From: Rhizobium leguminosarum
GTDB lineage: Bacteria > Pseudomonadota > Alphaproteobacteria > Rhizobiales > Rhizobiaceae
Length of the DNA: 14,413 bases
Direction of reading: 5' to 3'
Assembly: GCF_001652265.1 (NCBI RefSeq)
Contig: NZ_LWBS01000002.1
Location: 1-14,413, forward strand
Under the pieces are notes generated by a model. That model had not been told where the DNA came from. It made no database searches and saw only the letters and a program-made list of their open reading frames with translations. How positions within the stretch are numbered: position 1 is the first letter of the stretch; the number at the start of each line of letters is the position of its first letter. The translations under genes and the position numbers were made by a program. This document shows, piece by piece, positions 1,550-13,990 of this stretch.

Positions 1550-1791
1550 CTGGAGCTTTGCCGCGAAGCACGGGCTCGCAGGCTATCGAAATAGGCGGCA
1601 TCCACCGGCTCGGTCGTGTCGGATGAAGCGCCTTCAAGCAGGAGGTCACACAAGTGCTGCCGATCTTTGTCGTGACGGATCAACTCGCGGCCGTATTCCC
1701 TGCTCGTACCATAGCTTCGCCCGGCGACCTGCTGCTCGACGAACTTCTTCAGGTTATCCAGCACGAAATAATTCATAGCGGTCACGCTCAT
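1546..1791 (-). CDS. ParD-like type II antitoxin, orphan
   Basis: This 81-residue protein has the size and layout of ParD-family antitoxins. A short N-terminal strand and helices (residues 1-50, with SYGTSREYGRELIRHDKDRQ matching the ribbon-helix-helix signature of the family) are followed by an acidic linker and a C-terminal toxin-binding tail ending VDAAYFDSLRARA. Such proteins dimerise, bind their own promoter and neutralise a ParE RNase-fold gyrase toxin. The start ATG overlaps the stop of the upstream small gene (ATGA at 1791-1788), so the pair is probably translationally coupled. No intact toxin follows: the next minus-strand frame is antisense to traA. It may be a decaying module, or it may have been kept as a regulator or anti-addiction factor. 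Family call good, function of the orphan unknown. Confidence 0.7.
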   Translation of the reverse strand: MSVTAMNYFVLDNLKKFVEQQVAGRSYGTSREYGRELIRHDKDRQHLCDLLLEGASSDTTEPVDAAYFDSLRARASRQSSR

Positions 1792-2030
1792 TTCAAAGCT
1801 TTCTCGATCTCATCAGCGCCCAGAAGTTTGAAAACGTGCATCCAAAAGGTGAAATCACCTGAGCGGCCGTCGTAGCGCGCGCATAGTGCGCACCAGGCAG
1901 CCGCTGTTTTCGCATGCTGTCCGTAAAGCGATCGGGTAGCAGTACTGATGTCCCCAACATCTGCATCACTCCAAAAATCCGGTGTCGCCGCAGCGCTGCC
2001 GGTTGAGAACTTTTTGAACATTTCGCGCAT
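1788..2030 (-). CDS. Small unknown protein, 80 aa, first gene of the antitoxin operon
   Basis: I do not recognise a named family with confidence. The open frame reaches back to 2264, but the ATG at 2030 is the best start: GGGG lies six bases before it, and the part upstream reads like a promoter region. The protein is rich in aromatic residues (DFW, AAAWCALCARYDG, DFTFWMHVFKLLG), with two cysteines in the CALC segment. The C-terminal half could be a small helical domain. I recall similar short proteins with an AWCAL...GR...FW pattern from rhizobial plasmids, but cannot check. Its stop overlaps the start of the ParD-like gene by the ATGA arrangement, so the two are almost certainly one transcript. 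Alternative start: ATG at 2021. Confidence 0.55.
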   Translation of the reverse strand: MREMFKKFSTGSAAATPDFWSDADVGDISTATRSLYGQHAKTAAAWCALCARYDGRSGDFTFWMHVFKLLGADEIEKALK

Positions 2031-2342
2031 TAAAAGCCCCGTTACCGTCCGGAAACAGGCCATCAAATTATGCCGGACGTCGATCCCACCGAGTGGGCCA
2101 CGATCACGTGCCGTCCCTGGCAAATATGCGCTACGGCGCGAGATTCTCGCGCTCTCAACATTATGTTGTAACAAAAAAGAAAGGCAAGTTATAAAAATAA
2201 CCGTAGCGATAGCGCTTTGCGATTCTGTTGCGCATATTTTACCAGCCGTTGCGTGAGGTTCCAATCAAATGAGGCAGTTCTCTGGCAGTTTTGTCGTATC
2301 AAAAGCAATCGCGCTAAGGTCAGCAACTGGCGGAGCGAGACA
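2031..2342. promoter_or_regulatory. Intergenic region between the antitoxin operon and RR1
   Basis: This 312-base stretch separates divergent genes and is AT-rich around 2155-2205, unlike its surroundings. It holds two overlapping symmetrical elements: the interrupted palindrome CAACAT-T-ATGTTG at 2156-2168, and an operator-like 18-mer at 2160-2177. I cannot assign -35/-10 boxes with confidence. No convincing gene is present on either strand. The plus-strand frame through here is only the 5' extension of RR1, which has a better start at 2343. Confidence 0.5.
2160..2177. promoter_or_regulatory. Candidate operator O4 (GntR-type site, weak)
   Basis: The sequence ATTATGTTGTAACAAAAA matches the core of the palindrome at 8584-8601 at 15 of 18 positions, with the same GTTG/YAAC centre and a right arm ending ACAAAAA. 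It is 165 bases before RR1 and upstream of the antitoxin operon on the other strand. It overlaps a second palindrome (2156-2168), so the resemblance may be chance. Confidence 0.35.
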
Positions 2343-3035
2343 ATGAGCGAACTTCTGGCGATCGTATCCCAAGACGCTGACTATTATTTGATGCTGTCAT
2401 ACATCTTGAAAGGAGCCGGATACAGGACGATGCTCGTCGATGTTCCGAGCGAGGCAGTGGCGACTGCCGAGGAGCGTAACGCTGCAGCCATCATCGTCGA
2501 CTGCCAGCCGGGTTCACAAATTCTGGCTGACATCGCGTCCGGTCTGAAGGAAAGGGGACTTACCAGCGACGTCACGCTGATAGCGCTCGTTGCCGAAAGG
2601 GCCGCCTATCTCGACATCCTGAAAGCCGACGTCGATGAGAGCTTCACAAGGCCGATGCCCCCGGAACGGCTCCTCTCTTACCTCCATGGTACGATAGGCA
2701 ATACCTCTGGAGAAGCGACCAGCCGCCTTGCTCCGATATTTGACGATATGAAGCTGGATGTTAGCGGCCGACGTGTCCTCGTAAGGGGTATGCCAGTCAA
2801 TCTCAGCCCGATCGAGTTTCGCCTGCTTAGAGCTCTCATGGGTGACGCGGGGCGCGTTCTCAGCCGCGCTGAACTGATCGCAGTCGCTTGGCCGAAATCA
2901 GCATTCGTCGAGCCGCGGACGGTCGATGTTCATATCGGACGACTCCGGCGTGCATTAAGGCGGGCGCTTGGTCGCGATGTGATCCGCACCGTGCCAAAGG
3001 AAGGATATGCAATAGACATTGTCCAAAGCATGTGA
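2343..3035 (+). CDS. Atypical OmpR/PhoB-type response regulator RR1
   Basis: This 230-residue protein has a receiver-like domain at residues 1-115 and a winged-helix DNA-binding domain at about 135-228 (LSPIEFRLLRAL, then RTVDVHIGRLRRALRR, then IRTVPKEGYAI). Start at 2343 is set by GGAG seven bases upstream. The receiver keeps a phosphoacceptor-type aspartate (D53 in IIVDCQ). The acidic pair that normally binds magnesium is replaced by S9-Q10, and the conserved K of the KP motif is R103 (FTRPM). Phosphorylation is therefore doubtful, and no histidine kinase is in the window. The same substitutions occur in RR2 at 13319. The PLP synthase follows 114 bases downstream on the same strand and is the obvious target. 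Fold certain; signal and target genes unknown. Confidence 0.85.
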   Translation: MSELLAIVSQDADYYLMLSYILKGAGYRTMLVDVPSEAVATAEERNAAAIIVDCQPGSQILADIASGLKERGLTSDVTLIALVAERAAYLDILKADVDESFTRPMPPERLLSYLHGTIGNTSGEATSRLAPIFDDMKLDVSGRRVLVRGMPVNLSPIEFRLLRALMGDAGRVLSRAELIAVAWPKSAFVEPRTVDVHIGRLRRALRRALGRDVIRTVPKEGYAIDIVQSM

Positions 3036-3044
3036 CTTCGCCAC

Positions 3045-3077
3045 GTTCACATGTTCACCGAAACGTCCCGAAAACTT
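3045..3077. promoter_or_regulatory. Direct repeats upstream of the oxoamine synthase gene
   Basis: Two direct repeats lie side by side. GTTCAC occurs at 3045-3050 and 3053-3058, and CCGAAA at 3058-3063 and 3068-3073 with a 10-base period. OmpR-type winged-helix dimers bind head-to-tail repeats about one helical turn apart, so the CCGAAA pair is a possible binding site for RR1 or RR2. Short repeats like these also arise by chance. Confidence 0.25.
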
Positions 3078-3149
3078 GCTGTCGCTGTCGTTGCATAAAC
3101 ATCGACTACGCGTATAGCGTGAACTCCGTTAAACATTTGGGAGCACAAC

Positions 3150-4391
3150 ATGCAAGAGGCAGCTTCGGGCGCCGGATCGGCGAAAACATCCCACAGAAAC
3201 ACCGCGGGCCTGATCAGCCATGCGAGTCCCCACTTTGCCGCTGCCCAGCTCGACGGCTTGATGGCCCTCTATGTCCATCCGTCTGACGGACGAGCGGTGG
3301 AGCTGCCGGTTTCGGAGCGTCGATCGGAGCGCGTCGTCGACTTCGTCCGCTGCTCGTATCTCGGCCTCGATAATCACCCCTCAATCATCGAAGGCGCAAT
3401 CGAGACTGTTCGGCGCTACGGAACGCTACACTGGTCCTGCGCCCGTACGCGGCTCAATTTTGCCGTCCTCGGAGACCTCGAGGATGCTCTTTCTGAACTC
3501 TTCGGCGCGAGGGTTATCACCTATACTACAGTGCTTGCCGCTAATTTGAGCGCGCTTCCGCTGATTGCGTCCGGAGTCCTGACCGGCGGCACAAAACCAC
3601 TCATGGTATTCGACCGGCTTGCACATGCAACGCTTGCCTTCAACAAGCCCGTCGTTGCCGAAGAATGCGAGGTCCGCACCATAGGCCACAACGATCTTCA
3701 GGCGCTCGAAGAACTTTGCCGTCAGAACGGGACGGTCGCCTATGTTTGCGACGGTGTGTATTCCATGGGTGGCTGTGCCCCGATCAAGGAATTGCGCGAG
3801 CTTCAGGAGCGATACGGCCTCTTCCTCTACATCGATGATGCTCACGGCATATCGATCTTCGGAGAAAGAGGCGAGGGCTTTGCGCGTTCGCAAATGCCCG
3901 AGGGTCTCGGTGAACGGACAATCATCGCAGCGTCACTCGGGAAAGGCTTTGGAGCCTCAGGCGGCATGCTGATGCTCGCAACGGCGTTCCAGGAAGAAGT
4001 CTTTCGCCGGTTTGCTCTCGCGCATGCCTTTTCGGCTTCGATCAATGTTGCGGCGATCGGTGCAGCTCTCGCCTCTCAGGCGATCCATCGCACACCGGAA
4101 CTAGGCGTGCGGCAAAAGGTGCTCGCAGAACACATTTCTCTTTTCGACGAACTAGTGCCGACCGCACAGGCGGGATCCCGACTGCCGATCAGAACTATCC
4201 TGATCGGTGACGAGCTTGCGGCAATCGGCGCTGCGAGACTGGTGCTTGATTCCGGCTACTATACATCGGCCATTTTCTTCCCGACCGTGGCCAAGGGAAG
4301 GGCAGGGCTGCGAATATGCCCGACTGCCGGCCACACGGCTGCCGAAGTGCGCGACGTCGCAGTTGCCATCAACCGTGCTCTCAAGGGGTAA
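3150..4391 (+). CDS. PLP-dependent alpha-oxoamine synthase-like enzyme
   Basis: The 413-residue protein has the fold-type I layout of the AONS/KBL/ALAS/serine palmitoyltransferase/CqsA family. These enzymes condense an amino acid with an acyl-CoA and release CO2, giving an alpha-aminoketone. Visible landmarks in order: CSYLGL (68-73), H159 in DRLAHATL that would stack on the PLP ring, HND (180-182), S205 in YSMGG, the D229-D-A-H232 pair contacting the ring nitrogen and O3', the Schiff-base lysine K265 in SLGKGFG, and the C-terminal RAGLRICPTAGHT. Deviations are YGTLHWSCARTRLNF (90-104) in the usual glycine/serine-rich substrate loop, and SMGGC in place of the common SMDGD. The acyl donor and amino acid cannot be read from sequence. 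Start ATG at 3150 has GGGAG six bases upstream. It converges with the ABC operon. It could also be a decarboxylating variant or a class I/II aminotransferase-like enzyme. Confidence 0.8.
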   Translation: MQEAASGAGSAKTSHRNTAGLISHASPHFAAAQLDGLMALYVHPSDGRAVELPVSERRSERVVDFVRCSYLGLDNHPSIIEGAIETVRRYGTLHWSCARTRLNFAVLGDLEDALSELFGARVITYTTVLAANLSALPLIASGVLTGGTKPLMVFDRLAHATLAFNKPVVAEECEVRTIGHNDLQALEELCRQNGTVAYVCDGVYSMGGCAPIKELRELQERYGLFLYIDDAHGISIFGERGEGFARSQMPEGLGERTIIAASLGKGFGASGGMLMLATAFQEEVFRRFALAHAFSASINVAAIGAALASQAIHRTPELGVRQKVLAEHISLFDELVPTAQAGSRLPIRTILIGDELAAIGAARLVLDSGYYTSAIFFPTVAKGRAGLRICPTAGHTAAEVRDVAVAINRALKG

Positions 4392-4400
4392 AGATCCGTC

Positions 4401-4435
4401 TCCGCCCCGGACGGCAGCGCCGGCCCGGGGGCGGA
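4401..4435. terminator. Hairpin between convergent genes
   Basis: TCCGCCCC at 4401-4408 pairs perfectly with GGGGCGGA at 4428-4435, around a 19-base GC-rich loop. It lies between the stop of the oxoamine synthase gene (4391) and the stop of the binding-protein gene (4439), where a bidirectional terminator is expected. No T-run follows on either side, so intrinsic termination would be weak. Confidence 0.35.
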
Positions 4436-4438
4436 TCG

Positions 4439-5494
4439 TCATCGGATCCAGGCATTCCAACGCTCGAGCATCATCGAGGCGTTGTCGTTGATCCATTTGG
4501 CGTCCGGGATGACGATGTAATCCCGGATATCATTCTCGCTGGGAAGTGCCGCGCGTGCAGCCGGAGACATCAAGTCGATCGCCTTCCGGCTCGGTGGCGT
4601 GCAAAGGAGTTCCTCGCATACCCTGGCCTGCGCCTCGGGATGATCAAGCCAGTAGGCGATCAGCTTCAAGGCGTTCGCGCGATTCGGCGCATCCTTGATA
4701 ATCGTCAATCGATCGCCGACGAGGAACGAGGCCTGCTTGGACCAGGCGATCTGGCGTCCTTCCGCCTTCAGAGTATTTGCGCGCGTCAGCCAAATCTGCC
4801 CAATGCTGTAATCGCCGTTTCGAAAGCCCTGAACGCTCTGGTCGCCGGTCTTCCACCACAGCGATATCGCCGGGCGAATCTCGTCGAGCTTGTTGAGGGC
4901 GCGATCGATGTCGAGCGGGAAGAGTTTATCGCGCGGAACACCATCGGCTAGGAGCGCTGCAGCCATCACCCGCCACGGATCGTCGAAATTTGGAAACGAG
5001 CGACCACCGGGAAATTTTGTCTGGTTCCACATATCGGCCCAGCTCAACGGATTCCCATCCTTGAAGGCAGTCGGATCGTAGGCCATCAGCGTTGCGGTCG
5101 AAAAAAGCCTGGCCCCGGCACTGACGCAGGCATCCTCGACCAGATCTGGCCGGCCCTTGAAAGACGTGCAAAACTCGGTCAGGTCTTCAGATGTCAGCTG
5201 ATGCGCTTCAGCGCTCGCCTGGATTTCGCCGTCCGGGTAAAGGTCCCAGGTCACGTTGCCGGTCTTGACCATGGCCACAGCTTTCGCCCGCATCTCGGCA
5301 TTCGTTGCGGCGACTGAAATAACCTTGATGCCAGTCTTTTCGGTGAACGGCTCGAACCAGAATTTTCTAAGTGCGGTATCGTAGGCGCCGCCGGTGGTCG
5401 CAATGATGACCTGCTCCTCGGCTTGCGCCGCCCCCACACCAGCAAGCATGAGGCAAGCCGCAAGCAGTGGCTTGATCTTCGTTCGCTTTTTCAT
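4439..5494 (-). CDS. ABC transporter periplasmic binding protein, polyamine (PotD/PotF) type
   Basis: The product is 351 residues from the ATG at 5494, which has AAAGGA seven bases upstream; an earlier ATG at 5527 lacks this and would spoil the signal peptide. Residues 1-25 are a Sec signal peptide: basic KKRTKIK, hydrophobic core, cleavage after AQA before EEQ. The mature part begins VIIATTGGAYD and runs as a type II periplasmic binding fold with LYPDGEIQA, MAYDPTAF, SWADMWNQTKFPG and FRNGDYSIGQIW, as in extracellular solute-binding proteins of the spermidine/putrescine group. It would capture the substrate in the periplasm for the two permeases. The ligand is uncertain: this group also includes binders of other small amines, opines and aminophosphonates. 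It is the last gene of the four-gene operon, 34 bases after the permease stop. Confidence 0.9.
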   Translation of the reverse strand: MKKRTKIKPLLAACLMLAGVGAAQAEEQVIIATTGGAYDTALRKFWFEPFTEKTGIKVISVAATNAEMRAKAVAMVKTGNVTWDLYPDGEIQASAEAHQLTSEDLTEFCTSFKGRPDLVEDACVSAGARLFSTATLMAYDPTAFKDGNPLSWADMWNQTKFPGGRSFPNFDDPWRVMAAALLADGVPRDKLFPLDIDRALNKLDEIRPAISLWWKTGDQSVQGFRNGDYSIGQIWLTRANTLKAEGRQIAWSKQASFLVGDRLTIIKDAPNRANALKLIAYWLDHPEAQARVCEELLCTPPSRKAIDLMSPAARAALPSENDIRDYIVIPDAKWINDNASMMLERWNAWIR

Positions 5495-5528
5495 CGCGTA
5501 TTCCTTTGTCCCGATGAATGTGGCCACG

Positions 5529-6380
5529 TTAATTCTCCCCGCGGCCGGTAAGGAGATGAATGGTCCCCATGAGCAGCAGCGATACTGCGACGAGCAGCGT
5601 CGAAACCGCGGCTATGACTGGCGTGAGATTGAAATCGATGTCCTCGAACATCTTGCGGCTGATCGTTTTTCCTCCGGTATCGGAAATGAAGAAGGCAACT
5701 GTCGCCTCATCGAACGACGCTAGAAACGCAAAGACTGAAGCCGCAGCCACCGCCGGCGCGATGTTGGGAAGCACAATGCTGAAAAAGGCGCGGCTCCGGC
5801 TTGCCCCGCAATTCAGTGCGGCAAGCTCGAGTGACGTGTCGAAGCGCTCGAGTGCTGCCGATACGGTGATGATCACGTAGGGAACCGCAAGCACGGTGTG
5901 GGCGATCAGGAAGCCGAGGAAGTTGCCGGTCAGGCTGAGCGGTGAAAAAACCAGATAAAGGGCAACGCCAAAGACAACATGGGGAACGATCATTGGCCCC
6001 AGCGACAATGCCTGCAGAAGAGTCTTGCCCGGCAGGTTGCCGCGAACGAGCCCGATGGCGGCCAGTGTCCCGATAACCGTCGAAGCGACCGTCGTCGCCA
6101 GCGCAATCTGCAGACTGAAGATCGTTGCCGCGCGCCAGTCCGGATCAGATAGAAAGTCGATATACCAGCGAAGCGTCAGGCCCTTCGGCGGAAGCTCGAT
6201 ATAGCTGCTGTCGTTCAGCGAAAGCGGTATGACGAGCAATGTCGGCAGGACCAGGAAGAACAGGATTGCTCCGATCAGGAAACCCCCAAGGAGCCGCAAT
6301 GCCGCTTTGCCATAAGGTCGATGGGCATTGTTGACGGAAGAGGGGGCGAATGAGGCGGTGACTGTGGGCTCAATTGACAC
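5529..6380 (-). CDS. ABC transporter permease, PotC type
   Basis: This 283-residue inner-membrane protein has about six hydrophobic segments, starting at residues 31-54 after a polar N-terminus. The EAA loop that contacts the ATPase is at 185-211 (ELAALNCGASRSRAFFSIVL). It is the second permease of a polyamine-type importer. The start is GTG at 6380-6378. It overlaps the end of the upstream permease by 11 bases and is preceded by AAAGGA, so the two are translationally coupled. Length and topology are normal for PotC-like subunits. Confidence 0.9.
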   Translation of the reverse strand: MSIEPTVTASFAPSSVNNAHRPYGKAALRLLGGFLIGAILFFLVLPTLLVIPLSLNDSSYIELPPKGLTLRWYIDFLSDPDWRAATIFSLQIALATTVASTVIGTLAAIGLVRGNLPGKTLLQALSLGPMIVPHVVFGVALYLVFSPLSLTGNFLGFLIAHTVLAVPYVIITVSAALERFDTSLELAALNCGASRSRAFFSIVLPNIAPAVAAASVFAFLASFDEATVAFFISDTGGKTISRKMFEDIDFNLTPVIAAVSTLLVAVSLLLMGTIHLLTGRGEN

Positions 6381-7272
6381 TGTTCATTCCTTTGCTGACG
6401 GAAAGCGCCTTGCGGAACACAAGAACAAAGATCAGCGTCGTGGTCAGAAGAACGGTCGCAAGCGCTGCGGCAAACGGCCAGTCAAGCAGGACGGTGGTTT
6501 GCTGGCCGATCAGCGTTGCCATCATCAATGCTCCAGGCCCGCCGACGAGTGCCGGTGTGATATAAAAGCCGATCGCCAGGATGAAGCACATGACGCACCC
6601 GGCAAAGATTCCAGGCAAGCTGAGCGGCAAGGTCACGCGCAGGAAAGCGCCGATCGGCCCGGCGCCGAGATTGCGGGCGGCTTGGGCGTACTCGGCAGGA
6701 ATAGTGCGAAGTGCGTTATAGATCGGCAGGATCATGAAGGGCATGAGGACATGCGTCATCGCAAGGATTACCGCGCCTTCGGTATAAATAAGCTTCAACG
6801 GACTGCTAATGAGGCCGCTCTCGATCAGCAGGCCGTTAACGATGCCGTTTCGCTGCAGCAGCACAATCCAGGCGTAGGAACGCACCAGCACTGAGGTCCA
6901 TAGCGGCACGAATACCGCGGCAGATACGATCACCGCAATCTTGTCTTTGGCACGCGCCATGAGAAAGGCAACCGGATAACCGAGCAGCAGGCTCGCCACT
7001 GTGACGATCGCACCGGTCTGCAACGTGCGAAGTAGGACTTCCATGTAGAGTGGCTCGGCGACGATCCGCTCGTAATGCTCCAGCGTGAATTCCGGCGTCA
7101 TTAGGCTCAAAGAGACGAGCCGCCCGATTGGGTAGATGAAGCCGACAGCCAGTAAGAGCATCAACGGCGCAATCAGCAGGAACGTCAGTGCGTGCGAATA
7201 CTGCCGCGCCGAGTGTGAGAAAAACCAGCTTGCTGGGCGGGTTGGCGCAAGTGGTAAATTGTCGACCGTCAT
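6370..7272 (-). CDS. ABC transporter permease, PotB type
   Basis: The product is 300 residues from the ATG at 7272; the frame stays open to 7551 but that part is antisense-strand overlap with the ATPase gene and is not permease-like. The ribosome site GGAGG is inside the last codons of the ATPase gene, seven bases separating its stop from this start. The first membrane segment is at about 28-50, and the EAA loop at 194-220 (EYAQAARNLGAGPIGAFLRV) is canonical. It pairs with the PotC-type subunit to form the channel of the importer. Confidence 0.9.
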   Translation of the reverse strand: MTVDNLPLAPTRPASWFFSHSARQYSHALTFLLIAPLMLLLAVGFIYPIGRLVSLSLMTPEFTLEHYERIVAEPLYMEVLLRTLQTGAIVTVASLLLGYPVAFLMARAKDKIAVIVSAAVFVPLWTSVLVRSYAWIVLLQRNGIVNGLLIESGLISSPLKLIYTEGAVILAMTHVLMPFMILPIYNALRTIPAEYAQAARNLGAGPIGAFLRVTLPLSLPGIFAGCVMCFILAIGFYITPALVGGPGALMMATLIGQQTTVLLDWPFAAALATVLLTTTLIFVLVFRKALSVSKGMNSVN

Positions 7273-7279
7273 TGTCGTT

Positions 7280-8389
7280 TCATGCCTCCGCGACCGCAAA
7301 GAGCCGTAGGCCGTCGCTTTCGGCAATGACATCCACGAGGGCCCCCATTGCAAAAGGCACCCTCTTTCCATCAGCAGGGATCTGGACCTGAATGATCTCT
7401 CCGCTTCCGAAGTCGGAGCGAACGAGATGAAGGTCGAAGGAGCCGGCAAAGACCGACGTTTCGATCCGGCCGGGGAGGGCGTTCTTTCCCCCTGCACCAC
7501 GCGGTGCAAGACCAAGGCGCTCCGGCCGTAGCGCGAGCCGAACGCGATCACCTATCTTTGCCGAACCCTTGAATCCATGGGCAGCACCGGGCGTATCAAT
7601 GACCACGTTGTCACCCAGTCTGATCGTATGGCGGCCAGCGGCCTCGCCCAGGAATTCTCCAGTCAGGAAGTTCATCTTGCCGATGAAATCGGCGACAAAG
7701 GCACTCTGCGGATTACAGTAGAGGTCCGCCGGGGTTCCGAGCTGCGCCAGTTGCCCCTTAGCCATGACAGCGATCCGGTCGGACATGGACAACGCCTCCT
7801 CCTGATCGTGCGTCACGTAAATGACCGTGGCACCGAGGCGTCGCTGAAGCTGCTTGATCTCGATTTGCATGGATTCGCGCAGCTTCTTGTCCAGTGCCCC
7901 GAGTGGCTCGTCCATCAAGAGAACAGGCGGTTCGAACACGATTGCTCGCGCGACCGCCACCCGCTGCTGCTGGCCGCCGGAAAGTTCATGGGGATAGCGC
8001 TTGGCATAGTCCGAGAGTTGGACGAGGTCGAGCGCACGGCCAACCCGCTCTGCTCTGAGGTCCTTGCGGATGCCGCGCATCTTCAGGGGAAAGGCAATAT
8101 TTTCGGCGACGGTCAAATGCGGGAACAAGGCATACCGCTGGAAGACCATCCCGATATTGCGACGATCGGGTGATACGGCGGTGACATCGCGCCCGTCGAT
8201 GATGATGCGTCCGGCAGACGGGCTTTCGAAACCGGCGATCATTGTCAGAAGCGTCGTCTTGCCCGATCCGGACGGACCGAGGATCGACAGGAATTCGCCT
8301 GCCGGAACATCCAGGGTCACTGCGCCAACGGCAGTCTGGCTGCCGTAGACCTTGCCTATGCGATCGATAAAAACAGGCGCACCAATCAA
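7280..8389 (-). CDS. ABC transporter ATPase, PotA type
   Basis: The 369-residue protein carries the full nucleotide-binding set: Walker A GPSGSGKTT (38-46), Q-loop Q84, signature LSGGQQQR (136-143), Walker B VLLMDEP (156-162) and H-loop H194. A C-terminal TOBE domain (about 280-360, RVRLALRPERLGL) is typical of spermidine/putrescine and iron importers. It powers uptake through the PotB/PotC-type pair. The start is TTG at 8389-8387, chosen because AGGAG stands eight bases before it and the alignment of the family begins there. It is the first gene of the operon and sits 193 bases from the palindrome O1. Substrate is not revealed by the ATPase. Confidence 0.92.
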   Translation of the reverse strand: MIGAPVFIDRIGKVYGSQTAVGAVTLDVPAGEFLSILGPSGSGKTTLLTMIAGFESPSAGRIIIDGRDVTAVSPDRRNIGMVFQRYALFPHLTVAENIAFPLKMRGIRKDLRAERVGRALDLVQLSDYAKRYPHELSGGQQQRVAVARAIVFEPPVLLMDEPLGALDKKLRESMQIEIKQLQRRLGATVIYVTHDQEEALSMSDRIAVMAKGQLAQLGTPADLYCNPQSAFVADFIGKMNFLTGEFLGEAAGRHTIRLGDNVVIDTPGAAHGFKGSAKIGDRVRLALRPERLGLAPRGAGGKNALPGRIETSVFAGSFDLHLVRSDFGSGEIIQVQIPADGKRVPFAMGALVDVIAESDGLRLFAVAEA

Positions 8390-8401
8390 AATGAAATCTC
8401 C

Positions 8402-8425
8402 TCATTTGCGTGCTTTGCCACGCAT
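8402..8425 (-). CDS. Possible 7-codon leader peptide MRGKARK
   Basis: On the transcript leading to the ATPase gene, GGGAGG is followed five bases later by ATG and a seven-codon frame reading MRGKARK. Its TGA (8404-8402) sits just before the AGGAG of the ATPase gene. Four of the seven residues are basic. Such an arrangement could couple translation or sense basic amino acids or polyamines. It may equally be chance; nothing else supports it. Confidence 0.25.
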   Translation of the reverse strand: MRGKARK

Positions 8426-8473
8426 TGAACCCTCCCGGCTCCGCTCGTGCGGCGCCAGGTGCTTTGAGTGTCA

Positions 8474-8490
8474 TGCCGGCAAGACCGGCA
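8474..8490. repeat. Short hairpin in the leader of the ABC operon
   Basis: TGCCGG and CCGGCA form a perfect 6-bp stem with the loop CAAGA. It lies in the untranslated leader between O1 and the ATPase gene, with no T-run after it. Possible leader structure; function unknown. Confidence 0.3.
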
Positions 8491-8569
8491 GGTGTTCGGG
8501 CATGGCCTTCTCGGCCAAGGCGTTGCTAATATTCGCGATGACGATATGCTGTCACATCACGTCACTGGT

Positions 8570-8598
8570 TTTTATGCAATTCATTTTTGTTGCAACAA
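8570..8598 (-). promoter_or_regulatory. Candidate promoter of the ABC operon overlapping O1
   Basis: On the minus strand TTGTTG (8598-8593) and ATAAAA (8575-8570) are separated by 17 bases, which is a fair sigma-70-like spacing. The -35 hexamer lies inside the palindrome, so a repressor there would block it. Sequence match is modest. Confidence 0.3.
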
Positions 8599-8603
8599 AA
8601 ATG
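8582..8603. promoter_or_regulatory. Operator O1: perfect 22-bp palindrome between divergent ABC operon and GntR gene
   Basis: The core TTTTTGTTGCAACAAAAA (8584-8601) is perfectly symmetrical, and the symmetry extends two more bases each side. It sits 28 bases before the GntR start and upstream of the divergent ABC operon. GntR/FCD regulators bind short palindromes of this kind (TTGT-N4-ACAA type), so this is the likely autoregulatory and operon-control site. Confidence 0.75.
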
Positions 8604-8631
8604 TGAAGATGTCAACGCTCGGAGGTCAGTT

Positions 8632-9330
8632 TTGAACGAAAATACAACTGAAAAGGAATCGGCGGCGCCGGATTTGCAGTCTGGGCGCCTCAGCGACTAC
8701 GCTTATTCATCCATCAAGGAGCAACTCACACGCGGTGTTTACAAGCCCGGTCACAAGCTCCCGATCCGTTCGGTTGCCGAAATGCTGAGCGTTGGTGCTA
8801 CGCCGGCACGCGAGGCGATCAACCGCCTGGTCTTCGAAGGTGCGCTCGTCATGGTAGGCCCTAAAACCGTCATCGTTCCGCATCTCGATCTTGCGGCGCT
8901 CTACGAAGTCACGCAGATGCGGCTTGCGCTTGAAGGCTTGGCGACGGAAAAAGGCGCGCTTCGCGCGACGAATGATGTAATCGATAAGCTATTGGCGTTG
9001 CAGGAGAAAATCACGTTGTCGCTCGGCGAAAAGCGCTACTCCGACGCGCTTCACGATAATAAGGAGTTCCACTTTACGATTTATCGGTTGTGCGAGATGC
9101 CACACCTCCTTTCGACCATCGAGGCGCTGTGGTTAAGGGTAGGCGCCTCGTTCCACGACCTCTATCCCGAGTTTGCTGAAGCAAAATACGGTGTCCACAA
9201 CCATTTGGCCGCAATAGAGGGTCTGGTGGACAAAGACCCATCTGCGGTCCGCGCCGCAATGGAAAACGACATTCGAGACGGCTACCGGCGCCTGAAGAAG
9301 GCCGCGCAGGAGCGGTTCAAGCGACAATAG
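8632..9330 (+). CDS. GntR-family transcriptional regulator, FCD subfamily
   Basis: This 232-residue protein has a winged helix-turn-helix at residues 20-86 (SIKEQLTRGVYKPGHKLP, then ATPAREAINRLVFEGAL) and an all-helical FCD ligand domain at about 92-218. The start is TTG at 8632 because GGAGG stands six bases before it; an upstream TTG at 8587 would lie in the palindrome. In the FCD domain H147 (KEFHF) and H191 (HNHLAAI) remain, but the third metal ligand position reads ENDIRDG, so a metal site is unlikely and a carboxylate or amine ligand could bind directly. It probably represses the ABC operon, itself and the downstream enzymes through O1-O3, with the imported compound or a metabolite as inducer. 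That role is inferred from position. Confidence 0.88.
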   Translation: MNENTTEKESAAPDLQSGRLSDYAYSSIKEQLTRGVYKPGHKLPIRSVAEMLSVGATPAREAINRLVFEGALVMVGPKTVIVPHLDLAALYEVTQMRLALEGLATEKGALRATNDVIDKLLALQEKITLSLGEKRYSDALHDNKEFHFTIYRLCEMPHLLSTIEALWLRVGASFHDLYPEFAEAKYGVHNHLAAIEGLVDKDPSAVRAAMENDIRDGYRRLKKAAQERFKRQ

Positions 9331-9345
9331 CGGCAGGGCTAGATT

Positions 9346-9363
9346 TTTTTGTTGCAACTTCTT
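9346..9363. promoter_or_regulatory. Candidate operator O2 (half site intact)
   Basis: TTTTTGTTGCAAC at 9346-9358 is identical to 13 consecutive bases of the O1 core; the right arm then diverges (TTCTT). It lies between the GntR gene and the aminotransferase gene. O2 and O3 centres are 29 bases apart, close to three helical turns. Confidence 0.55.
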
Positions 9364-9374
9364 CGAGTTCATGA

Positions 9375-9392
9375 TTTTTGTGATAACAAAAT
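9375..9392. promoter_or_regulatory. Candidate operator O3
   Basis: TTTTTGTGATAACAAAAT keeps both arms of O1 (TTTTTGT and ACAAAA) with the same four-base spacer, here GATA instead of TGCA; 14 of 18 positions match. It is 44 bases before the aminotransferase start, in an AT-rich stretch that probably holds that gene's promoter. Confidence 0.6.
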
Positions 9393-9436
9393 TATGAAGG
9401 GTTGCACCGCGACCCGCGTTGGCCGGAGAAGATCGA

Positions 9437-10798
9437 ATGTTTCACCCTAATGTCCTTCGCACCGGCCGGGGATTTTCCCGGTCGAGGTCCGAACACTTCT
9501 TTAGAAAGGGTCGCCGCGTGTTTCCAACCGGGATCACGCGCGTCACCGTCGATCACGAGCCCAGCCCGCTCTACATTTCGCGCGGGGAGGGAGCCCATCT
9601 CATCGACGTCGACGGCAACCGCCTACTCGACCTAAACAATAATTTCACGACGCTGATACACGGCCACGGCTTCCTTCCAGTAGCTGACGCGGTTGCAGAT
9701 TTGCTTCATCGCGGAACGTGTTTTTCCAATCCGACAGAGCATGAGATCACGCTGGCAGAGCTATTGATCGAGCGCATTCCGGCGATCGAACATATTCGTT
9801 TCGTCAACAGCGGGACCGAGGCGGTGATGTTTGCGATCAAAGCCGCCCGCGCCTTCACCTGCCGACCGGGCATCGCACGGATAGAAGGCGCCTATCACGG
9901 CGCTTACGACTGGGCGGAAACGGGGCAGGCGGTGTCGCCGGCAATATGGAACGACCCACTGCGGTCGCCCGCCGTACCCGCCTATCGCGGCATGCCGTCT
10001 TCGGTAGGAGAGGAGGTGACCGTTATCCGATTCAATGACATCGCGGATCTGGAGCGCCGGATTGCTTCGGCTGCCCCTTCGCTGGCCTGTATCTTAATCG
10101 ATCCGATGCCGAGCCGAGCCGGGCTGATAGCTCCCGAACCGAGCTTTTTTGCCGCTGTCGAGGCGATTGCGAAGCAATACGGGATTCTCATCGTTGCCGA
10201 TGAGGTTCTCAATCTGCGGCAGTCGTATACGGGGGCTTCGGCCCGCTATGGCCTGCAGCCTGATCTGATTGCCGCCGGCAAGATTATCGGCGGAGGTTTT
10301 CCTGTTGGGGCAATCGGTGGGCGCAAGGAGGTGATGCGTGTCTTCGCAAGTGACAGCGGTAAGCCGCTGCTGCCGCAAGGCGGCACGTTTTCCGCAAATC
10401 CTGTATCGATGGTCGCTGGCCGGGTCGCTATGGAAGCGATGACGGATGGCGCTTTCGCTTCACTCGAGAGCCTTGGCGATCGCATCCGAGCCGGGCTTAG
10501 AAAAGAAATCGAGCGCCATGGTGCAAGCTTCAGCGTGACAGGGGCGGCATCCCTGTTTCGCATCCATCCGAAAGGAAAGCAGCCAACGGACTTCCGCGAG
10601 GCGTATCTGGCCCCGGAAGAGGCCGAGTTGATGGGCCGGCTCTCCAGGCACTTCCTGAATTGTGGCATCCTGCTTCCCAATGGTGCTGCGGCGTGCCTTT
10701 CGACGGCAATGACGACTGCTGACGGTGACGCGGTCATATCAGCCTTTGCAGACTTCCTTTCAATCCTCGAAGCAAATCCAACCGAAGCAGGCATGTGA
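9437..10798 (+). CDS. Class III PLP aminotransferase, glutamate-1-semialdehyde aminomutase-like
   Basis: The product is 453 residues from the ATG at 9437 with GGAG eight bases upstream. The class III fold is clear: FVNSGTEAV (122-130) binding the phosphate, YHGAYD (153-158) stacking on PLP, D255 in VADEVLNLR contacting the ring nitrogen, K282 in AAGKIIGGGFPVGA forming the Schiff base, and GGTFSANPVSM (315-325). The closest family is HemL-type aminomutase and its relatives that transaminate small amino acids or amines. DEVLNLR rather than DEVMTGFR, together with the catabolic-looking context, argues against a housekeeping hemL. It likely transfers the amino group from an imported amine or moves it within the molecule. 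Its stop overlaps a GTG and lies two bases before the TPP-enzyme ATG. Confidence 0.88.
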   Translation: MFHPNVLRTGRGFSRSRSEHFFRKGRRVFPTGITRVTVDHEPSPLYISRGEGAHLIDVDGNRLLDLNNNFTTLIHGHGFLPVADAVADLLHRGTCFSNPTEHEITLAELLIERIPAIEHIRFVNSGTEAVMFAIKAARAFTCRPGIARIEGAYHGAYDWAETGQAVSPAIWNDPLRSPAVPAYRGMPSSVGEEVTVIRFNDIADLERRIASAAPSLACILIDPMPSRAGLIAPEPSFFAAVEAIAKQYGILIVADEVLNLRQSYTGASARYGLQPDLIAAGKIIGGGFPVGAIGGRKEVMRVFASDSGKPLLPQGGTFSANPVSMVAGRVAMEAMTDGAFASLESLGDRIRAGLRKEIERHGASFSVTGAASLFRIHPKGKQPTDFREAYLAPEEAELMGRLSRHFLNCGILLPNGAAACLSTAMTTADGDAVISAFADFLSILEANPTEAGM

Positions 10799-10800
10799 CC

Positions 10801-12510
10801 ATGGCAACCGACAATTTAACCGCCGCCGAGCGTATCGCCCTTTCCCTCAAGAGGCACGACGTCACCCACATCTTTGCTCAGAGCCTGCCTTCGGCGGTTA
10901 TCCTTGCGGCCGAAGCAATCGGCATCCGGCAAATCGCCTACCGACAGGAAAATATGGGAGGGACCATGGCAGACGGGTATGCGCGGTTGTCCGGCAAGGT
11001 CGGCGTGGTAGCATCGCAGAACGGACCTGCCGCAACGCTTCTCGTTCCGCCGCTGGCCGAAGCGCTGAAGGCTAGCGTTCCGGTTGTTGCTCTCGTCCAG
11101 GATGTCGAACGAGACCAGGCTGATCGCAATGCATTCCAGGAACTCGATCATCTCATCCTATTTCAATCCTGCACGAAGTGGGTGCGGAAGGTCCTCGTTG
11201 CTGAGCGCATCGACGACTATGTCGATGCGGCCTTCACGGCAGCCGCCTCGGGTCGGCCAGGACCGACAGCTCTCCTGCTCCCCGCCGACCTCTTGCGGGA
11301 GCCGATAGCCCCTTCGCCCTTTCGTCGTGAGGCCGTGCTTGGCCACTGGCCACTCGATCGGTTGCGCCCGCGCGATAGCGACATCGAACGCGCGGCCTCG
11401 ATGATCGCTGCAGCCCAGGCACCCATCGTCATCGCCGGAGGAGGCGTCCATGCGAGCCATGCCGCCGGCGAGCTTTCGGAACTACAGGTCGAAGCCTCGC
11501 TTCCCGTGCTGACGACCAATATGGGAAAAGGCGCAGTCGACGAATACCACCCGCTGTCAGCTGGCGTTCTCGGTGCACTCGTGGGGCCGCGATCGCTCGG
11601 ACGGCACACGCTTGCCCTTGTCGAAGAGGCCGATCTCGTCATTTTGATCGGGACGCGAACCAATCAGAACGGAACTGACAGTTGGCGCCAAATCCCTCGG
11701 TCCGCATCAGTCATCCACATCGATGTCGATCCCACCGAAATTGGTCGCACATATGAGGCGCTCAGGTTGACAGGCGACGCGGCCGAGACCATCAGGGCGC
11801 TTCGAGGCGCACTTGCCCGACGCGATCTCTCGTACCGCGCATCGCAGCGCGATAAGTTGACAGCCCGGATCGCTGGATTCTGGCGCGCGTTTGACACGGA
11901 GCGACGATCTGTCGCTCGCTCGGAGAACAGTCCGATCCGTCCCGAGCGAGTCATGTCCGAGCTGCAGCGGGTGCTAACGGCAGACACCACCGTTGTTGCT
12001 GATGCGAGCTATTCCTCGATGTGGGTCACCGGCCAGTTGCGGGCGCTCTCGCCCGGTATGCGCTTCCTCTCGCCGCGGGGCCTTGCTGGACTTGGGTGGG
12101 GCCTGCCACTTGCGCTCGGTGCGAAGGCGGCAAAGCCCGACAAACCAGTTGTCGTCATTGTAGGGGACGGCGGTTTCGCGCATAGCTGGGCGGAGCTCGA
12201 GACCATGGTGCGAAGCAAGCTTCCGGTACTGATTATCGTGTTGAACAACGGGATCCTTGGCTTCCAACGTGATGCGGAAACTGTCAAGTTCGGCAGCTTC
12301 ACGACTGCGTGTAGCTTCGCGGACGTCGATCATCGGCGGATTGCGGAAGCCTGCGGCTGCCCTGCAGTCCGCATCTCCGATCCCGCCGATCTTCCTGAAT
12401 ACCTTGAGCGCGGTCTCTGTGGAGAAGGACCCTTGCTGATTGAGGTAATAACAGAGGCGGGCGCCCATCCACCCCTTTCGCTGTTTGCTGTTATGGATCA
12501 CGCGGCATGA
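10801..12510 (+). CDS. Acetolactate-synthase-like TPP-dependent enzyme
   Basis: This 569-residue protein has the three-domain plan of the acetolactate synthase / benzoylformate decarboxylase superfamily. The N-terminal PYR domain carries the cofactor-activating E50 (YRQENMGGTMADGYAR) and SQNGPAAT (72-79). A central domain follows (about 195-330), and the C-terminal PP domain has GDGGF (455-459) through LNN (481-483), which binds magnesium and diphosphate. It could decarboxylate a 2-oxo acid and join, or split, C-C bonds. It is not obviously the biosynthetic IlvB, because no small regulatory subunit is adjacent and the context is catabolic. Substrate unknown. ATG at 10801 is preferred; GTG at 10795 in the same frame is possible. 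It ends in an ATGA overlap with the SDR gene. Confidence 0.88.
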   Translation: MATDNLTAAERIALSLKRHDVTHIFAQSLPSAVILAAEAIGIRQIAYRQENMGGTMADGYARLSGKVGVVASQNGPAATLLVPPLAEALKASVPVVALVQDVERDQADRNAFQELDHLILFQSCTKWVRKVLVAERIDDYVDAAFTAAASGRPGPTALLLPADLLREPIAPSPFRREAVLGHWPLDRLRPRDSDIERAASMIAAAQAPIVIAGGGVHASHAAGELSELQVEASLPVLTTNMGKGAVDEYHPLSAGVLGALVGPRSLGRHTLALVEEADLVILIGTRTNQNGTDSWRQIPRSASVIHIDVDPTEIGRTYEALRLTGDAAETIRALRGALARRDLSYRASQRDKLTARIAGFWRAFDTERRSVARSENSPIRPERVMSELQRVLTADTTVVADASYSSMWVTGQLRALSPGMRFLSPRGLAGLGWGLPLALGAKAAKPDKPVVVIVGDGGFAHSWAELETMVRSKLPVLIIVLNNGILGFQRDAETVKFGSFTTACSFADVDHRRIAEACGCPAVRISDPADLPEYLERGLCGEGPLLIEVITEAGAHPPLSLFAVMDHAA

Positions 12511-13283
12511 GCGATGACCGCAGCCCACATGTTGCGGTTATCAGCGGTGGCACCACCGGGATCGGTCTTGCCACCGCGTTTCGCCTGCTGAAGGCGGGTC
12601 ATCGGGTTGCCGTCTTTAGCCATGGTAAGGCAAGCGTCATGGCGGCAGGCGCCGCGCTTGCTGAGGCTTTTGGGCCAGAGCGCTTCCTCGCGAGAAGGGT
12701 TGATCTCCGCGAACCGCCGGCAATCAGTTCCTTTTTCGGCGAAGTCGCCCGTGACCTGGGCGTGCCTGGAATCCTCGTCTGCAACGCGGGGATATCACCG
12801 AAAGGCCCCGAAGGCCCTCGTCACGTCGGCGACCTTCCCATTGAAGAATGGAACGACGTGCTCGCCGTCAACCTGACGGGGACGATGCTGTGTTGCCAGG
12901 CGGTTCTGCCAGCCATGAAGGAAATGAGTTATGGACGCGTTATATTTGTCGGTTCTCTTGCCGGCCGGACGAGACCACGGGTCGCCGGCGCGGGTTATGC
13001 GACGTCTAAAGCAGCACTTTCAGGATTGTCCCGCGTGCTGGTCTCTCAATATGGTCCCTATGGCATAACATCGAATGTCGTGGCGCCAGGTCGCATCCTG
13101 ACGCCACTGACAGGCTCCCCGCAAAGCAAGATCAACATCGACGCGCTCGCTCGTATTCCGGCCGGTCGGCTAGGAGCTCCGGACGACGTCGCCGCAGTGA
13201 TCGCGTTCCTGGCATCGGAGGATGCCGGGTTCGTCAATGGAGCCATTATAGATGTCAACGGTGGCGAGTTCGCGCCGAGCTGA
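12507..13283 (+). CDS. Short-chain dehydrogenase/reductase (FabG-like)
   Basis: This 258-residue classical SDR has the cofactor motif SGGTTGIGLA (13-22), CNAG (92-95), N122, and the catalytic serine S150, Y164 and K168 (YATSK). It ends with the usual VNGAIIDVNGG. It interconverts a ketone and an alcohol with NAD(P)H; H39-G40-K41 after the second strand hints at NADPH but this is not decisive. The start overlaps the stop of the TPP enzyme gene by ATGA, so the two are made together, and the SDR probably reduces or oxidises the TPP enzyme's product or substrate. Substrate cannot be read from sequence. Confidence 0.9.
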   Translation: MSDDRSPHVAVISGGTTGIGLATAFRLLKAGHRVAVFSHGKASVMAAGAALAEAFGPERFLARRVDLREPPAISSFFGEVARDLGVPGILVCNAGISPKGPEGPRHVGDLPIEEWNDVLAVNLTGTMLCCQAVLPAMKEMSYGRVIFVGSLAGRTRPRVAGAGYATSKAALSGLSRVLVSQYGPYGITSNVVAPGRILTPLTGSPQSKINIDALARIPAGRLGAPDDVAAVIAFLASEDAGFVNGAIIDVNGGEFAPS

Positions 13284-13289
13284 GCTCGG
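13275..13289. repeat. Interrupted palindrome at the SDR stop codon
   Basis: CCGAGCT and AGCTCGG flank a single G, a perfect 7+1+7 inverted repeat covering the SDR stop codon and lying 29 bases before RR2. It could be an RNA hairpin (stem CCGAG/CTCGG, loop CTGAG) that tunes read-through into RR2, or an operator. No T-run follows, so it is a poor terminator. Confidence 0.35.
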
Positions 13290-13318
13290 TTCATCAGGCG
13301 AGAAAAAAGGCAATCGAC

Positions 13319-13990
13319 ATGGCTCCCGTCATTCTGGTTTGCTCGCAGAACGCCGAGCTTTATCTACTCCTCGCGCACATTCTGCGTAGTGAAGGTTTTG
13401 AAGCTCGTCTAGCAGCAAGTGACGACGATGTGGCGGACGCCCGTACTTCAGCAGAGCTTTCCGCCGTGATCCTGGATTGTGCAGGCTGGCCGAGCGATGT
13501 TGCGCCTCTATGCGTGCTCCTGAAGAGCGCAGGGCTGCCCGTGGGTGCACTCATCGGCGGCGATATGCGTGCAGAGCACCTGCAGTTAATCAAGGCGGGC
13601 CTCGAAGGCATCATCACGCGTCCTTTGTCGCCTTCAAAGCTTCTCGCGTTTCTGCACGGCATAAAACCCCTGCCGCAGGCTGGAACCCTACCAAACTTCG
13701 CTGCCGCCGCCGAGATTGTCTTTGGGTCGCACGCCGTCGTGGTTTCAGGCAAGAGAATAGCGCTTGCGCCTATGGAGATGAGAATCCTCAGGTTTCTATT
13801 AGAAAGGCAGGGGCAGATCAGTACCCGCGAGCAACTCATTGAGGCCGTTTGGCGCAATCCGCACGCTGTAGAAAGTCGGACGGTTGACGTGCATATCGGC
13901 CGGCTGCGAAAAGCGTTTGCAGGACTGCGTAATCTGGGGATTCGCACCGTGTACGGCGCAGGTTACGCTCTCGAATACCATGATCATTGA
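13319..13990 (+). CDS. Atypical OmpR/PhoB-type response regulator RR2, paralogue of RR1
   Basis: The product is 223 residues, with AAGG eight bases before the ATG. The receiver-like domain covers 1-115 and the winged helix about 130-220 (LAPMEMRILRFL, SRTVDVHIGRLRKAF, IRTVYGAGYAL). It shares with RR1 the replaced acidic pair (S9-Q10), D53 followed by cysteine (VILDCA) and R101-P102 in place of K-P, plus matching hydrophobic positions throughout. The two are therefore paralogues of one unusual subfamily rather than two ordinary phospho-receivers. It follows the SDR gene by 35 bases and is probably the last gene of the enzyme operon, so its level would rise with the enzymes. Target genes and signal are unknown. 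Confidence 0.85.
   Translation: MAPVILVCSQNAELYLLLAHILRSEGFEARLAASDDDVADARTSAELSAVILDCAGWPSDVAPLCVLLKSAGLPVGALIGGDMRAEHLQLIKAGLEGIITRPLSPSKLLAFLHGIKPLPQAGTLPNFAAAAEIVFGSHAVVVSGKRIALAPMEMRILRFLLERQGQISTREQLIEAVWRNPHAVESRTVDVHIGRLRKAFAGLRNLGIRTVYGAGYALEYHDH

Follow-up and report, generated by a model that had tools for sequence, protein, structure and literature searches.

The window analyzed in this work is a stretch of 14,413 nucleotides at the start of a contig of Rhizobium leguminosarum (G000:C2:1-14413, in an assembly with 472 contigs, a completeness of 93.39% and a contamination of 5.44%). It contains a block of importer, enzyme and regulator genes that, by orthology with pSymA of Sinorhizobium meliloti, is identified as the rctR/rctC/rctB activation circuit of type II rhizobial conjugation. 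The genes lie in the order traA (plus strand), two small minus-strand genes, the regulator RR1 and an alpha-oxoamine synthase (both plus), the binding protein, two permeases and ATPase of an ATP-binding cassette (ABC) importer (all minus), and then, all on the plus strand, a GntR-type regulator, a class III aminotransferase, a thiamine pyrophosphate (TPP) enzyme, a short-chain dehydrogenase/reductase (SDR) and the regulator RR2. An initial annotation of this DNA, made from its letters, had named the genes from RR1 to RR2, all of which were found to be open and to match the families claimed in Pfam and NCBIfam. The overlaps it had described were also present, between the two permeases, between the TPP enzyme and the SDR (12507-12510) and, depending on the start codon, between the aminotransferase and the TPP enzyme (10795-10798 if the latter starts at a GTG, none if it starts at the ATG at 10801). 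The genes of the block are listed below, with handles beginning in L for loci and in G for genomes.

2343-3035, plus strand: RR1, RctB-like OmpR-type regulator with a degenerate receiver, anti-repressor by orthology (PF00486; receiver residues S, Q, D, R, V; beside the synthase as in pSymA, L011)
3150-4391, plus strand: alpha-oxoamine synthase, BioF/PRK07505-type, Alb29-like (NF005697, 524.8 bits, cut-off 342; PDB 8xha, E 4.7e-77)
4439-5494, minus strand: AttC-type substrate-binding protein of the importer (PF13416; PDB 5l9s, E 1.1e-143)
5529-6380, minus strand: ABC permease, AttB-like by position (PF00528)
6370-7278, minus strand: ABC permease, AttA2-like by position (PF00528; overlaps the neighbouring permease at 6370-6380)
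7280-8389, minus strand: ABC ATPase, AttA1-like by position (PF00005, PF08402; TIGR01187 over its cut-off)
8632-9330, plus strand: RctR, GntR/FCD repressor (PF07729, PF00392; TTG start as annotated in L009; open reading frame (ORF) open from 8587)
9437-10798, plus strand: GSAM-like class III aminotransferase (PF00202; NF000818, 308.7 bits, under the cut-off of 398; nearest PDB entry 6k8h)
10801-12510, plus strand: acetolactate-synthase-like TPP enzyme, PRK06112 subfamily (NF004772, 933.2 bits, cut-off 673), its catalytic Glu kept in 87 of 88 aligned rows
12507-13283, plus strand: SDR (PF13561, PF00106; NF009466, 240.3 bits, cut-off 222)
13319-13990, plus strand: RR2, RctC-like OmpR-type regulator with a degenerate receiver, last gene of the enzyme operon (PF00486; receiver residues S, Q, D, R, I)

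Both pSymA of S. meliloti 1021 (L011) and pAtC58 (L012) carry this gene set, and the pSymA orthologues of the TPP enzyme and the oxoamine synthase were 73% and 70% identical to those of the window, respectively. In the window a GntR/FCD gene lies beside a multi-enzyme operon and is followed by the aminotransferase, the TPP enzyme and the SDR, an order identical to that of L011, and two OmpR-type regulators of the rctC/rctB kind are present, RR2 inside the operon and RR1 beside the synthase. From this gene order we infer that the GntR gene is rctR, RR2 is rctC and RR1 is rctB. The 40 best matches in the plasmid collection were all Rhizobium plasmids, and at least 80% of the window was matched in one place in 43 of the 198 matching records. 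The initial annotation had regarded the system as unrecognised, a description that does not hold for a block orthologous to the conjugation-activation circuit of pSymA and with an importer matching attA1-A2-B-C.

The likeness to the RctA/RctB/RctR/RctC control of pSymA and pRet42d extends to a repressor gene adjoining an enzyme operon whose last gene encodes an OmpR-type regulator, another regulator of this type in the role of anti-repressor, and a type II traA on the plasmid. According to passages of PMC13274422, RctR represses the adjacent enzyme operon, RctC activates rctB and RctB acts against RctA; this activation circuit is reported on only 13 of 30 pSymA-like plasmids. The window differs from pSymA in that rctB is upstream of the enzyme operon, beside traA, and not downstream of it. 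In addition, the oxoamine synthase goes unmentioned in those passages of PMC13274422 that describe the rct circuit.

RR1 and RR2 had been described as two paralogous atypical response regulators, and alignment of their receivers with PhoB of this genome bore this out: both keep the phospho-acceptor Asp, Ser-Gln replaces the acidic pair, Arg replaces the conserved Lys and the Thr is absent. The alignment comprised 51 RctB-like and 55 RctC-like rows, with one gene standing twice (L106 = L112). In the RctB-like rows the Asp was kept in 47, Arg replaced the Lys in 49 and Ser or Thr replaced the first acidic residue in 48, and in the RctC-like rows the Asp was kept in 48 and Arg replaced the Lys in 46. 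Because the receivers lack the acidic pair and the lysine, RctB and RctC probably act by their amount and by partner binding, and their usual phosphorylation appears unlikely. Elsewhere in the assembly, a contig end (L143 10413-10742, G000:C108) carries the 3' half of RR2 again at 95% identity, a sign either of mixed strains in the assembly or of another plasmid of rct type in the cell.

Related operator-like palindromes had also been pointed out in the initial annotation. The palindrome TTTTGTTGCAACAAAA occurs four times in the window with up to 3 mismatches, against 0.04 expected from shuffles, with an exact match at 8585 and 2-3 mismatches at 2161, 2289 and 9376. These shared sites tie three promoters together, and we propose TTTTGTTGCAACAAAA, which is new here, as a candidate RctR operator at the importer/rctR, enzyme-operon and rctB-oxoamine synthase promoters. 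The sites, which carry no strand, are as follows.

2161-2176: distal site of the rctB promoter, a candidate RctR operator, TTATGTTGTAACAAAA, differing from the palindrome at 2 positions, with similar sites in relatives
2289-2304: proximal site of the rctB promoter, likewise a candidate RctR operator, TTTTGTCGTATCAAAA, 3 mismatches, 128 bp from the distal site (spacing class 127-129)
8582-8603: candidate RctR operator between the importer and rctR, a perfect 22-bp palindrome, CATTTTTGTTGCAACAAAAATG
9374-9393: candidate RctR operator of the enzyme operon, ATTTTTGTGATAACAAAATT, by palindrome match

The remainder of the genome held one further place with 2 mismatches or fewer (G000:C231), and no operator-like site with 3 mismatches or fewer was found beside four virB stretches of this genome (L144-L147). 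Across the module and synthase loci, the density of sites with up to 3 mismatches was 2.8 per kb in aminotransferase promoters, 1.6 in GntR promoters and 2.6 in promoters of the synthase-adjacent regulator, compared with 0.007 per kb outside these three promoters (16 in 2.25 Mb, a number that includes promoters of regulators whose synthase lies past the locus end). The aminotransferase promoter carried a site in 76 of the 77 scorable TPP loci, that is, the 88 TPP loci minus 11 without a GntR or aminotransferase gene in the stretch, the GntR promoter did so in 67, and both promoters did so in 67 of the 77. L105 and L106 were left out of these counts as copies of the window and of L112.

Upstream of the synthase-adjacent regulator, a site was present in 37 of 54 distinct promoters and two sites (up to 4 mismatches) in 32, compared with 131 and 47, respectively, of 4000 random same-length stretches, which were drawn from whole loci with the promoters included. 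The 54 promoters exclude L105 (a copy of the window), L106 (a copy of L112) and L132 (the same promoter as L039), before whose removal there were 55, 38 with a site and 33 with two; they include six in which the regulator is at the locus end and the synthase is assumed to lie beyond, without which the counts are 48, 31 and 26. The per-locus survey of rctB sites, with 52 rows, retains L105, L106 and a second L022 row. The paired sites at rctB were spaced by 105-107 bp (4), 117-120 bp (10) or 127-129 bp (18), with nothing between these classes; the best two sites were used in the one promoter with a third, and the counts pool related sequences, such that independent spacing changes are few. The steps of about one helical turn suggest that two RctR dimers may be bound on the same face of the DNA. 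Sites persist in L113, L114 and L131, where the regulator-synthase pair stands without the other module genes (in L114, on a different contig from the enzyme operon), and the rctB promoter of pSymA (L011) has a site pair 118 bp apart, with 3 and 4 mismatches. The presence of such sites at rctB suggests direct control by RctR, unlike the published pSymA circuit.

The oxoamine synthase belongs to the gene set, a finding that is new here. Among 297 genomes of the family, 14 gave a synthase match at E <= 1e-100 and 15 a match to the TPP enzyme at E <= 1e-210, and the first group lies wholly inside the second (Fisher 4e-23, for genomes that are not independent). The initial annotation had treated the genes at 2.3-4.4 kb and those at 4.4-14 kb as one unit and had named their separate occurrence in nearly all relatives as the refuting observation; in 13 of the 14 genomes the two enzymes share a contig and fall within a span of about 21 kb, in G608 they are on different contigs, and the unit stands. 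In 297 genomes of the order the synthase was present in six and the TPP enzyme (at least 63% identity) in four, with three shared, and of the 80 loci retrieved with the TPP enzyme, 47 come from 46 genomes, in 37 of which the synthase (E <= 1e-80) was identified and in nine not. The synthase and its regulator can precede the enzyme operon, follow it or be inverted with respect to it, and this variable position indicates that the association survives rearrangement. Paralogues of the TPP enzyme (L015, L016 and L017; 55-57% identical) lie in similar sets of GntR, alcohol dehydrogenase, branched-chain-type ABC, SDR and GMC genes, and the setting in Rhodococcus is different; these neighbourhoods name no substrate. 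An apparently decayed module was observed in Rhizobium sp. K102 (L019 12001-14011), in which a TPP enzyme remnant, an SDR and an RR2 remnant stand directly behind transglycosylase, virB2-like and virB3-like genes.

Adjoining the block is a relaxase gene that points to conjugation and was absent from the initial annotation:

2-1519, plus strand: 3' part of traA, Ti-type conjugative relaxase (PF17841; annotated traA at the corresponding place in L009 and L010)

In L009, L010 and L012 the type II Dtr genes, in the order traG-traD-traC-traA, adjoin the block or stand no more than about 5 kb from it, and in L009 and L010 they directly precede it. Of 37 genomes, 13 have VirB4 on the contig of the synthase and no more than 50 kb away from it, against 1.1 expected, and 6 of 14 genomes of a second set that partly overlaps the first have it near the synthase (in G608, near the TPP enzyme); handles with equal coordinates (G010 = G406, G023 = G470, G028 = G312 and G040 = G593) are duplicates. 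Plasmid records with a TPP relative (E <= 1e-100) were typed as conjugative in 121 of 160 cases, and the fragmented assembly of this genome has four strong VirB4 matches and one weak one. The C-terminal part of TraA has two BID-like stretches (PF17841), a domain of Bartonella effector proteins that is here on a relaxase.

We hold it to be quite probable that the block forms the activating part of RctA-type control over the conjugation of a rhizobial plasmid, acting as a metabolite-gated switch. RctR on the TTTTGTTGCAACAAAA operators would keep at a low level the Att-type importer and rctR, the aminotransferase-TPP enzyme-SDR-rctC operon, and the rctB-oxoamine synthase unit. The signal that releases RctR would be a small molecule, most likely an amino compound that enters through the importer. 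The enzymes would then consume or convert the inducer molecule while RctC and RctB are made, and RctB would counteract the repressor RctA, such that the mating-pair genes would be transcribed. In this scheme we infer the binding of RctR to the palindromes, its direct binding at rctB, the identity of the importer ligand with the inducer, and the chemistry.

Several points weigh against this reading. The naming of rctB versus rctC is based on gene order and not on the original sequences, and RctR of the published circuit is taken to be a GntR protein. The gene rctA, which in the known circuit precedes the Mpf/virB operon, was not located in this genome, in which no test aimed at rctA was made. 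A total of 28 synthase genes, distant homologues and cut loci included, had no adjacent OmpR-type regulator, and the regulator-synthase pairing is therefore common but not universal. With respect to direct control, a passage of PMC13274422 denies that RctR directly represses rctB in S. meliloti, yet sites occur there. In addition, no rctB site with up to 4 mismatches was identified in C58 (L012), Shinella (L014) or the giardinii-like L048, L052 and L057, nor in L062, L064, L065, L082, L084, L087, L112, L124, L125 or L127. The lack of a site in C58, which has sites at its aminotransferase and GntR promoters, and in 14 further loci indicates that direct control is not universal.

A further point against concerns transfer itself, as the module was found without VirB4 at E <= 1e-15 in G017, G030, G035, G040, G046, G169, G425 and G593, which are probably seven genomes. 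Conjugation consequently cannot be the sole use of the module, and is one output of the block and not the whole story. These same seven or eight genomes would suit a metabolic island that merely adjoins traA and has no tie to transfer. However, such an island would not account for the regulatory link published for pSymA (passages of PMC13274422), the VirB4 proximity in 13 of 37 genomes against 1.1 expected or the operators held in common with rctB, and we regard it as very improbable. The block is an ordinary member of the rct circuit with unusual and testable content, and a metabolite-gated RctR switch is its most likely mechanism.

The importer bears on the nature of the inducer. The initial annotation had described it as polyamine-type; an ABC importer is indeed present, but the polyamine type was not sustained, as the binding protein is nearest to AttC (PDB 5l9s, E 1e-143; 481.6 bits, compared with 147.3 for the next solved protein) and PotD-type proteins score far lower. 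A plain polyamine catabolic operon was ruled out on the basis of the AttC-like binding protein. A 103-residue stretch of 5l9s is unchanged in the binding-protein gene of pAtC58 (L012), and the window importer shares its family with attA1-A2-B-C of that plasmid, under which names, attA1, attA2, attB and attC, the ABC genes of C58 are given in part of PMC4051167. The att genes of Agrobacterium were named after attachment, unlike the role proposed here for the window importer; the attachment role is termed unclear in a passage of PMC4018554 and, for attKLM, is refuted in a passage of PMC4231840. The literatures on the att genes of Agrobacterium and on the rct genes of rhizobia are joined by these findings, as both describe one kind of locus under two names. 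To our knowledge, neither the att importer nor that of the window has a proven ligand.

On Ti plasmids, conjugal opines couple conjugation to food. A comparable nutritional cue is a serious contender for the window, one we place a little short of even: a plant or rhizosphere amine, mannopine- or gamma-aminobutyric acid (GABA)-like, would be brought in by the importer, catabolized by the enzymes and read by RctR, conjugation would follow food, and the synthase would make a side product or perform a Kbl-like cleavage. MotA and an agropine binding protein are among the lower-scoring kin of the importer, and the depositors of 5l9s give it a mannopine label. Genes for the permeases, the ATPase, the GntR regulator, the aminotransferase and the TPP enzyme are present in distant genomes, for example L074/G031 and L095/G044, in which no synthase was found at E <= 1e-80. 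The rctB gene of pAtC58 is under the agrocinopine regulator AccR, as stated in part of PMC4231840. However, a nutritional cue leaves unexplained both the pairing of synthase and TPP enzyme in 14 of 15 family genomes and the share of the synthase in the RctR-type sites through rctB, and Kbl entries score below 120 bits with the synthase, compared with 262 for Alb29.

The synthase has its catalytic residues, and K265, H159, D230, H232, R99 and R101 each recur in 69-71 of 71 aligned rows. The four solved proteins closest to it, which are nearly one sequence, score about 262 bits and the next 116 bits. One of the four, 8xha, is Alb29 of the albogrisin pathway of Streptomyces, an enzyme described in passages of PMC11906848 as using L-glutamate and several acyl-CoAs to form aminoketones. 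R99 and R101 are common to both enzymes in the alignment. Alb29 serves a natural-product pathway (same passages of PMC11906848), whereas the window synthase gene comes after a conjugation regulator, and the selectivity position reported there is Leu in Alb29 and Cys97 in the window enzyme. Kinship and the Arg residues make L-glutamate and an acyl-CoA candidate substrates, and the alpha-aminoketone product proposed in the initial annotation is reasonable given the kinship with Alb29. The product of glutamate and acetyl-CoA is 4-amino-5-oxohexanoate, the methyl-ketone homologue of glutamate-1-semialdehyde and also an acyl-GABA. Transamination of such an aminoketone would give an alpha-diketone, which SDRs reduce and acetolactate-synthase-like enzymes can join or split. 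4-Amino-5-oxohexanoate would fit the GSAM-like aminotransferase.

The CqsA/LqsA synthases of alpha-hydroxyketone autoinducers share a superfamily with the window enzyme and, like it, form an aminoketone beside response-regulator-type genes, but membership of that family was rejected (PRK07179, 62.9 bits against a cut-off of 428) and, unlike in CqsA/LqsA systems, no histidine kinase was identified among the window ORFs tested with Pfam. Distant relatives of the synthase (39-41% identical) occur on plasmids of Pantoea agglomerans (L100) and Rhodococcus (L101), amid ATP-grasp ligases, FMN monooxygenase or nonribosomal peptide synthetase-type genes, settings that look like natural-product clusters. 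No published link of the oxoamine synthase or of these enzymes to rhizobial plasmid control turned up among the papers listed from the open literature (subscription papers being outside it), and the parts of the literature consulted gave no description of the enzyme pathway of the block.

These analogies raise the less probable but credible idea of a plasmid pheromone loop. The synthase would make an alpha-aminoketone, by analogy with Alb29 a 4-amino-5-oxoalkanoate, which would exit, be re-imported, release RctR, and be removed by the aminotransferase, the TPP enzyme and the SDR. A loop of this kind would resemble the Lsr system for AI-2, which has a repressor, an importer and degrading enzymes in one regulon; Lsr differs in its protein families, and the window loop would hold the synthase inside the regulon. 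The loop agrees with the confinement of the synthase to family genomes with the TPP enzyme, with the L-glutamate user Alb29 being among the closest solved entries, and with a GSAM-like aminotransferase, glutamate-1-semialdehyde being the aldehyde homologue of such a product. The binding protein scored 116.4 bits with the GABA sensor 6dgv and 122.7 with 4eq7/4euo, which we take to be the GABA protein Atu4243 (its depositors label it polyamine), compared with 55 for PotD. Its R238, present in 74 of 81 rows, aligns with an Arg in both 4eq7 and the sensor-type entry 9d57. On the other side, the product, the exporter and the ligand are all hypothetical, and the selectivity position differs from that of Alb29.

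Recurrent extra genes in relatives also bear on a pheromone loop. Clustering of 2,387 ORFs from 113 loci, in which clusters count loci (four hydrolase, three acetyltransferase and three gene S pairs being one gene fetched twice or nearly identical), identified 20 loci with a GNAT acetyltransferase near the synthase and 26 whose importer operon includes an M81/MlrC-type hydrolase; it further identified a nucleotidyltransferase-HEPN fusion near rctB or the synthase in 34 (L011 24835-25755 and 33 others), and two kinds of LuxR-type gene with an autoinducer-binding domain in 12 and 8. In 10 genomes the gene immediately after the synthase encodes a second class III aminotransferase, and L104 has the synthase, an aminotransferase and the TPP enzyme as consecutive genes in that order. 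Both synthase and importer were visible in 66 of 92 genome groups; the acetyltransferase was present in 16 of these 66, all with the hydrolase, the hydrolase alone in four and neither in 46. This link was rejected as independent evidence, because its Fisher value of 6e-12 counts genomes and the TPP tree, a quick one of 65 genomes with an artefactually long L062 end branch, shows only five and three changes of the acetyltransferase and hydrolase, mainly in two places; an independent-pairs test cannot reach 0.05 and was without power. The window carries neither gene, and the nucleotidyltransferase-HEPN fusion was not found in it. The extra genes fit a molecule that is made, re-imported and degraded, but with few independent events they are suggestive and no more.

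The LuxR-type genes of the more common kind, cluster E, were rejected as receptors of the synthase product. A LuxI-like match was found within about 1 kb in 7 of the 11 genomes searched (G169, G036, G038 and G040 by stretch coordinates; G035, G628 and G629, that is, L081, L082 and L087, with contig identity assumed), and where complete the genes are more simply a quorum-sensing pair that gives no pointer to the synthase product. LuxI was not found in the other four (G033, G024, G039 and G042), one further cluster E locus, L103, was outside the search, and the cluster H genomes G634 and G635 had no LuxI at E <= 1e-5. LuxI- and LuxR-type genes, as in TraR/TraI quorum sensing, were found beside the module in some other lineages but were not identified among the 14 window ORFs given to Pfam. 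In G169:C1, a single contig of 6.3 Mb with no VirB4 at E <= 1e-15, about 99-126 kb (L111, L112) holds a complete module with a second aminotransferase, acetyltransferase, hydrolase and a LuxR/LuxI-like pair.

The pheromone idea can be taken further, to a plasmid with a chemical language of its own, which we consider more doubtful again. A synthase co-controlled with rctB would make a 4-amino-5-oxoalkanoate-like pheromone that the importer returns, RctR reads and the aminotransferase, TPP enzyme and SDR destroy, and RctR dimers at the two operators, the distance between which shifts from lineage to lineage by about a helical turn, would loop the rctB promoter shut. The pheromone would be free in Rhizobium and Sinorhizobium and N-acetylated where the acetyltransferase is present, with the M81-type hydrolase deacetylating it. 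If true, symbiotic plasmids would produce the inducer of their own transfer. That the inducing metabolite comes from the oxoamine synthase of the plasmid rather than from outside we consider unlikely, though well short of negligible. The trigger of RctA-controlled symbiotic plasmid transfer is called unknown in passages of PMC7403402, PMC9601222 and PMC13274422. To that question the block offers a likely sensor, importer and operator sequence and a candidate synthase.

Between traA and rctB are two small genes. The first, an ORF at 1546-1791 on the minus strand, resembles ParD-type antitoxins (TIGR02606, 27.2 bits, under the cut-off of 46.2), overlaps the second by 4 bases and has no recognised toxin gene beside it. 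The second is as follows:

1788-2264, minus strand: gene S, small and conserved, probable coding part 1788-2063 (by alignment and a cluster of 13 loci near rctB, some of which are the same gene fetched twice)

Gene S had no family match in Pfam or NCBIfam. It is divergent from rctB, adjoins the candidate RctR operators, and has a motif of the kind YG..A..AWCAL.A..DGR..D..FW..VF.LL.

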